Positions 4,901 through 60,259 of a DNA stretch of 64,000 bases are shown here, piece after piece; positions within the stretch are counted from its first letter, which is position 1, and each line of letters opens with the position of its first letter. The notes below the pieces were generated by a model, which saw nothing but the letters and a program-made list of their open reading frames with translations, was not told the origin of the DNA and did not search any database. This stretch comes from Deuterostichococcus epilithicus (lineage: Eukaryota; Chlorophyta; Trebouxiophyceae; Prasiolales; Stichococcaceae): positions 744,001 through 808,000 of the forward strand of contig JAVTLE010000007.1 in the NCBI GenBank assembly GCA_033439295.1, given 5' to 3'. Both the position numbers and the translations under genes were made by a program.

Positions 4901-7900
4901 TGCGCCGCCTGTTGATCAAACCGTTCTTTGGGTATCGCCCATGCAGCACCATGATGGATCACGACAGATCATAGTGGATCATAATGAGGCATGCCTGTGC
5001 TCGTGCACACAGGCCTCTTCAAGCGCCAGCTCCTCAGGACGCAGCAGCCATGTGTGCCGATGTGATGCCGGTGTATATCCGACTGTCCCGGATGAGTTCT
5101 CTGCCCTCCCTTCATCTGTCGTTGGAGCATCCCGAGCTGGCGAGGTGCGCCGAACTGGCGCACAGTCCCACGGGCGCAGCCGCACCTGGATCATGCTGAC
5201 GTCGTTGGCGCCGTCGCCGATGGACAGCGTCACAGCGCCGGCACCCTCCTTCACCAGCGCCGTCACCTGAGCCTTCTGCAGCGGCGACACCCGGCAGCAC
5301 ACCACCGCCTGCGCAACACCACGCCACCCGCATGTTGGGGTTAGTTTTTAGGATTTAGTTTCAAGCTTTCGAGGGCTGGACGTCCCAGCTGGACCGATGG
5401 ATGTGGGGAACCATTCCACAACCCCGCACCAAGGTGAGCCAGGAGCATGTCATCAGTTCGGATGCAGACTGAAGTTGTCGAATGCCTGTAGCCAGCCAGC
5501 CGCACCTTGCAGGCCATGCCCAGCTCCAGGAAGCGCGCCTTCGAGCCCCCCTCCAGCGCCACCGACAGCGCGCGGCCGTCAATGACGACCGCCAGGTCCG
5601 GCGACGAGTCGGGTCGCGCGCGGGTCAGCCGCGCCACGCGCGCCGCGTCATCCAGCTGCTGCGTCACCTGCGCGCAACCGGGGCACTAAGGGGGTCTCAC
5701 AGCAAGTGTGCACATGCAAGTGATGGTGCGTCCGCCCTCCCACAGGACTGCACAAGCAGAAGACTGCTGCGTGCAGCCGAGCGCCGTTGATTTAAAAGAG
5801 TTACAATCAGGGATGTAGGCTCCACAATGAGGAACAAAGCAGGGCCCGCAGCATTTCCTCACGCAGGATGCACGCTGCTGATGCATGGCGAAGTGAAACA
5901 CTTTGCAAGTCTCACATCCGAAGCACAGCAGTCGCACCTCCTGGTGCACCAGCGCCCGCAGGTCGGCGCAGCCGCGCCGCTCGGCGTCCAGGATGGCGTC
6001 CGTCTCGCTGGAGATCAGCAGCCGCTCCTGGCAGTTGCTCAGCAGGCTGCACGCGTAGCCAATGTTGATGGCGGTCTCGACCTTGTCGCCGGTCAGCACC
6101 CAGATCTTGAGCCCGGCTGCTCGCAGCTGCTCGATGCACTCAGGCACGCCCTGCGGCGTGTCACACTTTCTTCGCCGACATATAGGTACTTCCTGTTGAC
6201 GACGCCCTGCCACAAGGCTCTGCGAACTGCCGTGCGCGAGTTGAATATGAGTCCTGCGGCTGTAACACTCCCAAGCAACACCCCCATCAGGCCTCTCTGC
6301 AAGCAGCCCATGTTGGGAGGAATCTCCGACCCCAGCAGACCGTTTTCTTGCCAGAGATTGAGCGCTATATGCACACACGAACACCTGCTGCAGCTTGTCC
6401 TCGATGGCGGTGGCACCCAGCAGGATCAGGTCCTTCTCGATGAGCTCCGCCGCCGTCTCCATCTGCGCGTCCCGCTCCTGCATCGCCGTCTTGGCGGCCT
6501 GGAAGCGCGGCGCCCACCCCGCGAACTCCGCCGGCGGCACCACCCTGCGCCCATAAACGCAATACTGGGTCGTGTCTCATTCGGTGTCTCGGACCAACAA
6601 GCCAACAGTGCCGTGCCTTTGGAAGGCGCAGCAGGCCAACAACTGTCGGCTTTGCGCTCCTCCTGCAGGTGCCGTTTTGTGGCCTAGGCAGCGTCTGAGC
6701 TGCGCAGCAGGCCGGTGTCGTGCCACTCCTCAAAGCCTATCGCCGACCGGCTGCTGGGCACCCGCTGGCAAAGCGCAGGGTGCGCAGGTCCTGAGTCCCC
6801 AGGCCTTCCTCAGCTCAGCCCCTGTATGAGAGGCGGCGTGTGCACGACGCCAGGTTCCATCTTCGCCAGCACCTTTCGCTGTCGCGCACCTGTAGGCGAG
6901 GCACAGGGTGCGCAGGCCCTGGTTGCCGTACTCCTCCAGATGCGCCTGTGTGTCATCAACGTGCTCCTGCCCCTCGCGGCCCAACCGCTCGAAGATAACA
7001 GTGTCCGCCCCCTGCGGGCACAGCAGAGGTTGTAGAGCTGGTGTACAGGCAAGCCCAGGCTCTCGCCTCTGCCCATCAGATGCGGCAGGGTCTTGCGAGC
7101 GGCCTGTGCAGATGCAGCCATCTTCTATGAGGTTGTTCGGAGAATGCTTGCTGCAGTATGCAATAGCACTGTATGTGCCGACCGCCGCACCTTGCAGTAC
7201 AGCACGATGGTGCCGTCCGGCTGCCGCACAATGGACGACTGGCGCTTGCGGGTGGAGTTGAACTCCAGAACCGCCAGAACCTCGTACTCCACCAGCGCCG
7301 GCAGTGGCCCTGCCTCCCACACCTGAGAGGGCTGTCAGGGTTCGCATATCTCCGGAACGGCCACAAGCGTGTTGTCTTTGTTTCGCCTGGATATCACACA
7401 ACAGCCTGCCAGCACCGCAGCCTGCCAGGTAGGCCCACGATCTACTTATGTCTTCTGCTGTGTTGGACTGGTCTGCAAGCGGGCGACAAAAGTCAACATG
7501 AATGTCACCAGTCCGCCGCCTTCTGGGCAGCAGGTGAGACTCGTGCACATTAGCGAACCTTGACGCCGTGCGGCGTGCGGGCGTGACAAAAGAAGCCGAA
7601 GACCTTGGCCGCCACCACCAGCGCCGCCTCGTCGGGTGATCCGGCCTGCAACAAGCAGCGACCGTGCTCTTGCTGCAGTTTTGGTGCCCTGCAAGAATGC
7701 AGCCAACGAGCCGGAGTGTGCCGGACCTGCGCACACTCAGCGGATGCTGAATGCTGGAATAGTATCATGGCTCTTGGTCGCCTGGCAAGCGGTCGTTCAG
7801 TGGCGCGATCCCTGCATGGCGGTCATAGGCCTCATTGAGGCTGTACGTGCACAGAAAGGTCTCGGCACCGCACCTGGTACTTTATCTCGGCGGGCGTGGG

Positions 7901-58900: not shown

Positions 58901-60259
58901 GGTCTACAACATGACACGTTGCTGCGACGGTCGTTCTGCGGGCGGAGGGCGTGCGGGGACGCGCGGCGCAATGCAAGAACTCGACCAGCGGGCGCTCGAG
59001 GGCGAGGGTGTTTTGAAAACCAATAAAACAAAGAAGGAAAAAGAAAACATCGCTTGATAATGTGCAACCCTGCAGGCGGAGGACGAGGAGGCGCGGCGCA
59101 AGGTGGAGTCCAAAAACACGCTGGAAAACTACGCCTACAGCGTCCGCAACAGCCTGCGCGACGAGAAGGTGCGCCCCCTCTGTCCGTCCACATGCAGGCG
59201 CCCCTGCTGCCGCCTGTGTTGCAACATGCAGGCCTGCAACCACGACGACAGCGGCAGCCAGCGAGACGAGAGTGTATTCGCCCCTTTCTGTCTGCATTTT
59301 CAGAGCCCTGCCGCGAAAGCCTGCGCGACCAGCAGGTGCGCCCCGTCCAGATGGTCGGCGCCAGCAGCGCCAAGCAGTGCGGGCGTGCAGCGCACAAGCC
59401 TGCGGCACGAGACGAGGACCCCCTCAGAGCCAGATCTGCGTGCTGGCGTCCCTGCCTGTAGCGCGTGAGAGCGCAGGTCTGCAGCCCCGACGGCCGCTGT
59501 CACGATGGCAAGCGGGCGTGGCAATAGGCTTTCATGACAAGGGTGCGCTCTTGGCATCCCAAGCGTGCACTTCAATGCGCAGGTGGCGTCAAATCTGAGC
59601 TCCGAGGACAAGGAGAAGGCAAATTCGGCCATCGACGAGACCATCTCCTGGCTCGACAACAACCAGCTGGGCGAGGTGCGGTGGCAATTCGTCATACGCC
59701 TACTGTTGCGCTTTGGCAGGCAAGCAGGCAGCTCGGCACAGTCTCGATGGATGTCAATCCCGGCAAGTCATGTCAATCGAGAAGTGGCTGCGCTGCGGCA
59801 CGTGGAATCACTCTGCTCGTTGATGGTCTGCAACCCTGACGTTTCACTTCTTTCAAAGTATATGAGTCGCTGGGGGCTCATGGAGATTCTACCTTGCCTC
59901 AAATGCAGGTGGAGGAGTTCGAGGACAAGCAGAAGGAGCTGGAGTTGGTCATCCAGCCCATCATGACCAAAATGTACCAGCAGGGCGGCGGCGCCGAGGG
60001 CGGCATGCCCGGCGGCATGCCCGGCGGCATGCCTGGCGGCGCCCCCGGCGGCGGCGGCGCAGGCGGCGGCGGTCCTACGGTTGAAGAGGTCAGCATCTTT
60101 GGGCCCCGGCTCTCGCAGCTGCATCGGCTCGATGAAGTGATCTGCTGATTGTTCCACGAGAGTTTCGGAACTACACTAAGCCTGCCTGTGCTCGGCTGCC
60201 ACTGTGCAAGCACTACTACATGGCTGACTGCTTGCTGTATCCGCGTGCAGGTCGACTGA
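52915..60259 (+). CDS. HSP70: Cytosolic HSP70 molecular chaperone, 19 exons
   Basis: ATP-driven chaperone of the cytosol/nucleus. Nineteen exons (52915-52954, 53150-53280, 53486-53627, 53934-54018, 54352-54463, 54784-54903, 55224-55334, 55921-56028, 56457-56585, 56875-56943, 57203-57328, 57534-57602, 57758-57846, 58138-58304, 58576-58667, 59076-59168, 59583-59675, 59909-60088, 60251-60259) sum to 1965 nt, 654 aa, in unbroken phase. Signatures: GIDLGTT, then [46 protein letters not shown], and [19 protein letters not shown]; the lid and GGMP repeats ([12 protein letters not shown]) follow, then PTVEE and, from the 9-nt last exon, VD-stop. The EEVD tail, which binds TPR co-chaperones, marks the cytosolic type. 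No signal or transit peptide. Introns after 53627 and 56585 use GC donors. An unspliced read ending at 60148 would lose EEVD and is less likely. Confidence 0.97.
54259..54297 (+). repeat. Degenerate copy of HSP70 exon 5 start in the preceding intron
   Basis: Similar to 54350-54404 with one 6-nt gap; AAGAAGGTGA, CCAGGCG and GATCAC blocks are shared. It lies about 107 nt upstream of the real exon. Confidence 0.7.
55661..55787 (+). repeat. Imperfect 63-nt tandem duplication in HSP70 intron 7
   Basis: Units 55661-55723 and about 55724-55787 share CTTTGC-GCCGTC and GCGTCTACTTGCAG blocks. The unit is pyrimidine-rich and ends like a 3' splice site, so the intron holds duplicated acceptor-like sequence. 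Confidence 0.7.
58723..58758 (+). repeat. (CTG)12 microsatellite in an HSP70 intron
   Basis: Twelve perfect CTG units shortly after exon 15. Intronic, so length change should be tolerated. Confidence 0.95.
59318..59344 (+). repeat. Copy of HSP70 exon 16 end with donor site
   Basis: 27 nt matching 59151-59177 at 25 positions, including AGCCTGCGCGAC, CAGGTGCGCCCC versus AAGGTGCGCCCC. Offset is 167 nt. A more degraded third copy may lie near 59255-59275. Confidence 0.8.

Follow-up and report, generated by a model that had tools for sequence, protein, structure and literature searches.

Introduction

Short duplications of DNA linked to introns, or to the repair of broken chromosomes, have been described in several eukaryotes. 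They are compared here with copies of exon edges that lie inside the adjacent introns of the green alga Deuterostichococcus epilithicus, and that were noticed in a 64-kb stretch of its genome (contig C6, positions 744001-808000), referred to below as the window.

In vertebrates, repair-mediated duplication by capture of proximal DNA has been attributed to break repair by synthesis-dependent strand annealing (SDSA), with acceptors located in transposons, with donors no more than 5 kb away, with a median of 147 bp and with a required spacing of at least 50 bp, exons and intron splice sites being among the duplicated sequences (Pace et al. 2009, PMC2671141). The algal copies are similarly short, local and set apart from their donor. 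However, exon edges are nearly their sole source, their offsets are mostly of 100-180 nt, and they reach about one in ten of the sampled introns. Introns may also be gained by tandem genomic duplication, as in the potato RdRp gene (PMC4974935), a process that likewise links direct duplication to introns, whereas the algal introns hold copies of the exon on their own side and the duplication does not take in the entire unit. Direct repeats of 4-30 bp at or near exon-intron borders have been attributed to break repair (Rogers and Bendich 2025, PMC11782384), but in that case the two borders of one intron were compared, while here an exon edge is compared with the intron on the same side. Introners (PMC9860276) offer another example of fast intron change in eukaryotes, although here no repeated element appeared among the matches listed for five introns. 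Finally, interstitial telomeric repeats at breaks (PMC2246262), for which break repair is one possible source, resemble the internal telomere-like repeats described below, which differ from them in being oriented and placed at intron ends. Among the titles and opening lines of abstracts listed in literature searches, whose scope did not extend to subscription journals, none described exon-edge copies in algal introns.

Exon-Edge Copies in the Sampled Introns

The exon-edge copies are real, they are not restricted to the window, and they are found in about one tenth of the introns sampled. The sample consisted of the window and 17 loci of 10 kb, one per contig (234 kb of a genome of 46.8 Mb in 21 contigs). 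Of 20 contigs tried for such loci, three did not have the necessary length. Gene models were produced by a small gene finder, self-trained on these 234 kb of DNA without RNA evidence, which returned 435 introns (median 243 nt; median exon 117 nt). After a cleaning step in which 38 of 489 exons were dropped, 384 introns with an exon on either side were retained, with a median of 266 nt.

Gapped alignment of these 384 introns with the adjacent exons in sense orientation gave a score of at least 18 in 32 of 768 comparisons. The same score was reached in 1 of 673 comparisons with the exon two away in the same gene, in 7 of 4608 with length-matched exons of other genes, and in 1 of 768 with the adjacent exon in antisense. 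The test of adjacent against non-adjacent exons had been set beforehand as a possible refutation of the initial annotation, which had reported seven such copies in the window, and its outcome was a clear excess of adjacent-exon matches. At score 16, a copy is found in 41 of the 384 introns, a value reached by exons of other genes in 30 of 4608 comparisons.

An annotation-free search of the 234 kb (offset 30-600, score at least 20) returned 36 direct repeats, against 0, 1, 3 and 1 in four far-offset controls. At offsets of 60-320 and the same score, 24 pairs were direct and none inverted; the direct pairs peak at 100-130 and fade by about 320, and inverted pairs stay at background. Chance or composition as a cause is ruled out by the far-offset, antisense, non-adjacent-exon and other-gene controls. 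When near pairs (offset 60-329, score at least 16) were sorted by context, 37 were exon-intron (1.0 expected; opportunity 21.6 million base pairs), 6 intron-intron (0.7 expected; opportunity 21.3 million base pairs), 4 exon-exon (0.6 expected) and 2 intergenic (0 expected). Three of the six intron-intron pairs represent a second exon copy, one crosses the edge of an exon and two have no evident exon link.

At a score of at least 17, 38 copies were obtained, unevenly spread: one locus (L006) carries 7 copies in 17 introns, the window carries 8 in 118, and 7 of the 17 loci carry none. Six of the 38, lying more than 15 nt off the exon edge or less than 30 nt from the splice site, were set aside (L005 7794, L010 2546, L010 2974, L015 6728, L017 6535 on the 5' side, and L019 3307), and the remaining 32 are called edge copies below. 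Three of the 38 (the two in L010 and L015 6728), located in CAG-rich or proline-rich low-complexity sequence, are probably spurious.

Structure of the Copies and of Their Introns

The copied sequence is anchored at the exon border, since in 27 of the 38 copies the copied block comes to within 6 nt of the intron-facing edge of the exon. The expectation for this was 9%, under a null in which blocks were placed inside exons only, and edge-straddling segments would raise it, so that the anchoring test alone is not decisive. The exon part of the copies measures 28-104 nt in the measured cases. Past the splice site, similarity falls to control level within 10-15 nt by position, or ends at about 5-18 nt by eye, and some copies include 5-13 intron bases.

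The offset between exon edge and copy has a median of 127 nt (10th-90th percentile 102-207, n = 32), and it is divisible by 3 in 10 of the 32 cases. Edge copies lie at a depth of 37-200 nt in the intron on the 5' side and of 52-171 nt on the 3' side. As in proximal duplication, they are near the donor and not adjacent to it: spacers range over 37-200 nt, a minimum that is partly a product of the 30-nt exclusion filter, and 3 of 32 are below 50 bp. Serial copies occur at offsets of 149 and 149+115 in L006, of 115 and 221 in L015, and of 116 and 418 in L009.

Of the 32 edge copies, 31 have their centre in the intron half adjoining their own exon, and one (L006 4557-4657) does not. It had been suggested that such copies feed the birth of introns by tandem duplication. 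This placement does not support the suggestion, because under that model the intron would start with a copy of the downstream exon and end with one of the upstream exon.

Copy-bearing introns are longer than the others, with a median of 451.5 nt (n = 30) against 266.5 nt (n = 330), and a copy at score 17 is present in 11 of 33 introns of 450-600 nt, compared with 1 of 42 under 150 nt. This excess remains after subtraction of the copy (p = 0.00025), and vanishes by rank test after subtraction of copy and spacer together (p = 0.35). For five whole introns, of the 35 with a copy, dispersed copies were sought elsewhere in a genome search in which only the top candidates were scored, and only the intron itself and its parent exon appeared among the matches listed.

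The DNA Beside the Copies

If the whole unit had been duplicated in tandem, the spacer between exon and copy should possess a twin beyond the copy. Such twins are recognisable in 2 of 31 cases, with 1.6 expected by chance and 24.1 expected under whole-unit tandem duplication. The test was run on 31 of the 32 edge copies, one having no room for a twin, and in two versions, the second of which allows for uncertain copy age and for insertions and deletions at the rate of the paralog yardstick described below. The spacer is therefore unduplicated, and simple tandem duplication is not the answer. Thus, the proposal in the initial annotation of a local tandem duplication across splice sites is retained insofar as the copies are local, direct, repeated at some junctions and tied to longer introns, but not with regard to its tandem unit.

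A nearby origin was also sought for the spacers, 7 of 31 beating all 12 controls (2.4 expected). Six matches reached a score of at least 15, four of them with the adjacent exon edge, representing further exon copies, and two with opposite-strand exon sequence. Beyond the copied bases, the DNA before copied 3' edges resembles intron ends in its k-mers, with a score of 0.048 (n = 19; genuine ends 0.016). Equally distant DNA of other introns scores about -0.04 (p = 0.0007), and the more upstream DNA of the copy-bearing introns themselves -0.05 (p = 0.0002).

Decay and Age of the Copies

A yardstick for sequence change was provided by two HSP70-like paralogous stretches, inverted and about 120 kb apart (C6 14.5-19.5 kb, L034, and 138.3-142.8 kb, L035), which are 7.5% diverged (92.5% identical) over 4454 aligned bases with 26 gap openings. 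Some matches nearby contain stops, so these stretches may be partly pseudogenes. The pair can still be aligned, noncoding DNA mostly included, except for one patch of about 45 nt.

Mismatches between copies and exons fall almost evenly on the three codon positions (57/54/68). The ratio of transitions to transversions in the copies, 1.35, is the same as in the yardstick, and gap openings per mismatch are 0.105 against 0.078 in the paralog pair. Among edge-anchored copied sites, 6 out of 10 still have GT and 9 out of 16 still have AG. Taking together the flat codon positions, the yardstick-like substitutions and gaps and the loss of GT and AG, the copies are taken as neutral DNA. The earlier statement that they usually include the splice-site bases is roughly right, with the qualification that a good part of these bases has been lost, as is expected of decay. 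Along the copy, identity is 0.90 over the first 8 nt and 0.74-0.82 beyond, and some copied splice sites still score like real ones.

With respect to age, 4 of the 32 edge copies are less than 10% diverged, 16 are at 10-20% and 12 at 20% or more. Young copies should be the easiest to detect, and their scarcity does not sustain the initial description of an ongoing habit of the genome: it speaks against a steady, ongoing process, or else copies are born imperfect.

Telomere-Like Sequence at Intron Ends

Between 12 and 70 nt before 3' splice sites, CCCTAAA-like 9-mers were counted 102 times in sense and 2 in antisense, mostly at 10-40 nt, the sense counts for control units of the same composition having a mean of 18 and a maximum of 49. 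After 5' splice sites, at 8-58 nt, the counts were 43 antisense and 8 sense, control units having been run there for sense only. It has to be noted that these counts overlap, and hence are not independent. In exons such 9-mers are rare (11 and 17 in 60 kb). A gapped CCCTAAA score shows no rise for the average intron end (4.47 against 4.50 for control units), and the excess corresponds to a minority of strong runs, present at 9 of 290 ends as compared with 0.79 for each control unit.

Strong runs precede copied edges in 2 of 19 regions. Spacers on the 3' side are rich in CCCTAAA-like 9-mers, with 16 in 1.3 kb, and those on the 5' side have none. In the unalignable patch of the paralog pair (about 45 nt, L034 approximately 1859-1900) the two carry unrelated DNA, L035 reading about three CCCTAAA units, (CCCTAAA)3-like. 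Six contig ends were inspected: that of C1 holds 43 CCCTAAA units within 400 bases, those of C12 and C19 hold a few, and the start of C3 has none. Plant-type telomeres are likely in this alga.

Judging from sequence, CCCTAAA at intron ends could represent scars of break repair, or a branch point with its C-rich tract. The repeats fit either role and, since they are oriented and positioned, one in splicing is equally possible.

Origin of the Copies

The explanation that we favour, tentatively and at somewhat less than an even chance, is that the copies preserve earlier splice junctions as neutral fossils, made by junction-proximal repair duplication around new DNA. A staggered break, or a template switch, near a splice junction would duplicate the exon edge in direct orientation, as a segment comprising 28-104 nt of exon and some 5-18 nt of intron, and usually about 40-110 nt of new DNA would end up between the duplicates, presumably in the same event. 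Splicing would stay with the site adjoining the intact exon, and the old edge would drop into the intron and decay. Each event would in this way add roughly 100-150 nt at the end of the intron, and repeated rounds would give rise to serial fossils. Break repair as the cause, the arrival of the spacer in the same event, and this order of events are inferences.

R-loop cleavage, paired-nick duplication in plants, and the short paired duplications known as doublets are related ideas. The described process that this case is most like, by analogy, is vertebrate repair-mediated duplication (PMC2671141). The exon-edge copies may be regarded as one variant of such local duplication by repair, the mechanism given here being a proposal.

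Several observations weigh against this explanation. If the repair duplication were a generic one, intron segments should be copied into introns as well, and only two non-tandem pairs without evident exon link were found; this near absence implies that something favours exon edges and, together with the stop of similarity near the splice site, it is unexplained by the vertebrate process. Moreover, a new 3' intron end must function immediately, which random filler would rarely manage, and branch-point-like motifs before copied 3' edges are not raised (4 of 19, against a frequency of 0.35 at true ends and 0.19 in intron interiors). The length data are not uniform either: after subtraction of copy and spacer the median is still high under uniform resampling (p = 0.013), and with subtraction of the copy only, the excess has p = 0.055 under length-weighted sampling. 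An empty site was not found, the sole close paralog pair showing no event, and the scarcity of young copies is unexplained.

A more specific form of the same explanation, which we consider doubtful, is that junctions are renewed, breaks at exon edges being repaired with duplication of the edge and new intron-end sequence, in some cases made of telomere repeats, so that introns would grow from their ends and record their former junctions. Just as doubtful is the detail that such breaks arise, for example, where re-hybridised spliced RNA ends at the exon border, and that CCCTAAA could supply the branch point. If junctions were truly renewed, intron ends would be younger than intron middles. Discrete growth-like events are visible in about a tenth of the sampled introns, while intron lengthening has otherwise mostly been inferred from saturated sequence. 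As these events, which are tied to the splice junction, are still readable, one related genome could allow direct measurement of intron growth with respect to its rate, its size and position, and its repair signature.

The strongest rival, which is possible but distinctly less probable than fossil junctions, is that only the exon-edge copy was inserted, a there-and-back template switch on the same DNA strand having placed it in an intron that already existed, so that the spacer and the remaining intron would be old. It agrees with sharp short blocks in an intron that is otherwise single-copy where searched, with the exclusively direct orientation and with branch-point-like motifs that are not raised before copies, and, being neutral, it requires no new splice site. 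Nevertheless, it leaves unexplained the intron-end-like k-mers before copied 3' edges, the intron excess of about copy plus spacer, and the lower rate at which intron segments are copied.

The initial interpretation, in which a unit of 70-200 nt was simply duplicated in tandem across the splice junction and then decayed, is now unlikely. Direct orientation, unit-like offsets, edge anchoring and an added length near the offset would all be expected from it. However, the spacer twin is missing in 29 of 31 cases where 24 should be visible, beside young copies too, and introns of the paralog pair mostly align at 7.5% divergence; this interpretation is contradicted unless spacers evolve several times faster than the adjoining copies.

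Slightly less likely again is an exchange between haplotypes or lineages with like exons and unrelated introns, which would leave one junction of each in tandem. It would account for similarity limited to exons, for unrelated flanks that are intron-end-like and for the few intron-intron pairs. Introns so saturated would nonetheless imply strong third-position differences between the exons, which the even mismatches do not show, and close paralogs retain alignable introns. It is this conflict with the flat codon-position pattern that leads to the assignment to local duplication by repair given above.

The idea that the copies are functional alternative exon edges or splice decoys under selection draws on the copied sites that score like real ones. 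It is rejected as very improbable, given the unconstrained codon positions, the neutral spectrum, the loss of GT in 4 of 10 and of AG in 7 of 16, and the offsets, of which only 10 in 32 are divisible by 3. Copying of spliced mRNA back into the gene would explain exon-rich sources in sense orientation only, but it is also rejected, with scarcely any probability left, because copy flanks show no continuation into the following exon (p at or below 0.05 in 4 of 32, with 1.6 expected; combined p = 0.32), 5-13 intron bases are included in some copies, and no copy evidently spans an exon-exon junction. An introner-like mobile intron with a long target-site duplication would leave direct repeats on either side of the spacer, and is just as improbable, given that five whole introns have no dispersed copies among the matches listed and that no second splice site is seen by eye in the spacers beside the copy.

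Copies in the Window

By Pfam, the window encodes a P4-ATPase, a CTLH protein, a PX protein, eIF3c (E = 1.7e-193) and HSP70 (E = 7.3e-260, profile positions 1-599), and because these are recognisable as known families, the copy-bearing introns are removed from sensible reading frames. Pfam gives PX for the gene first termed EREX, and two CTLH stretches for the one termed double-CTLH. All seven copies first reported in these genes are present and overlap the places given for them, and their offsets of 72-167 nt are correct throughout. Six reach a gapped exon-only score of at least 17, diverging from the exon by 4% to 27%, and the seventh is the HSP70 copy in the intron 59169-59582. Three further cases are marked as additional in Table 1.

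Table 1. Exon edges and their intron copies in the window (window coordinates).
Feature	Position	Strand	Offset (nt)	Identity and remarks
Source, end of P4-ATPase (flippase) exon 6890-7011	6895-6921	-		Gene family by Pfam
Flippase copy, intron 6545-6889, 5' side	6767-6793	-	128	85% over 27 nt; ungapped 77% over 44 nt at 6750-6793
Source, start of flippase exon 10458-10577	10516-10574	-		
Flippase copy, intron 10578-10841, 3' side	10636-10694	-	120	73%
Source, start of CTLH-gene exon 14381-14617	14547-14617	-		Pfam
CTLH-gene copy, intron 14618-15081, 3' side	14673-14743	-	126	83%; ungapped core 93% over 40 nt at 14710-14749
Source, start of CTLH-gene exon 14021-14088	14046-14087	-		Additional
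CTLH-gene copy, intron 14089-14380, 3' side	14195-14236	-	149	81%; AAAACCCTGAACCCTG within spacer
Source, end of PX-gene exon 20097-20308	20281-20308	+		Pfam
PX-gene copy, intron 20309-20551, 5' side	20353-20385	+	72	27/28 exon bases + GTGAG
Source, start of eIF3c exon 39078-39260	39216-39258	-		Pfam
eIF3c copy, intron 39261-39794, 3' side	39326-39366	-	108-110	38/41 aligned bases
Source, start of HSP70 exon 54352-54463	54364-54400	+		Pfam
HSP70 copy, intron 54019-54351, 3' side	54257-54293	+	107	81%
Source, start of HSP70 exon 56457-56585	56457-56492	+		Additional
HSP70 copy, intron 56029-56456, 3' side	56349-56384	+	108	78%; one of two cases with possibly duplicated spacer
Source, end of HSP70 exon 59076-59168 + 12 intron bases	59144-59180	+		
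HSP70 copy, intron 59169-59582, 5' side	59311-59347	+	167	86% over 37 nt incl. 12 intron bases; score 16.2 exon-only
Source, end of the window's last exon (exon end 63703)	63664-63700	+		Additional
Copy downstream of last exon	63777-63813	+	113	81%; intron's far end beyond window

An HSP70 intron also contains a 63-nt head-to-tail duplication (55657-55786, 79% identical), which differs from the spaced exon copies. When one HSP70 exon was compared with solved structures, HSP70 chains ranked top. Introns beginning with GC instead of GT number 13 of 118 in the window and 47 of 384 in the sample, although some of these may be model errors. The single open frame at 27685-31674 (minus strand) is, by eye, a candidate copia-type retrotransposon polyprotein. 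Exons of the light-harvesting family gave 39 matches in the genome.

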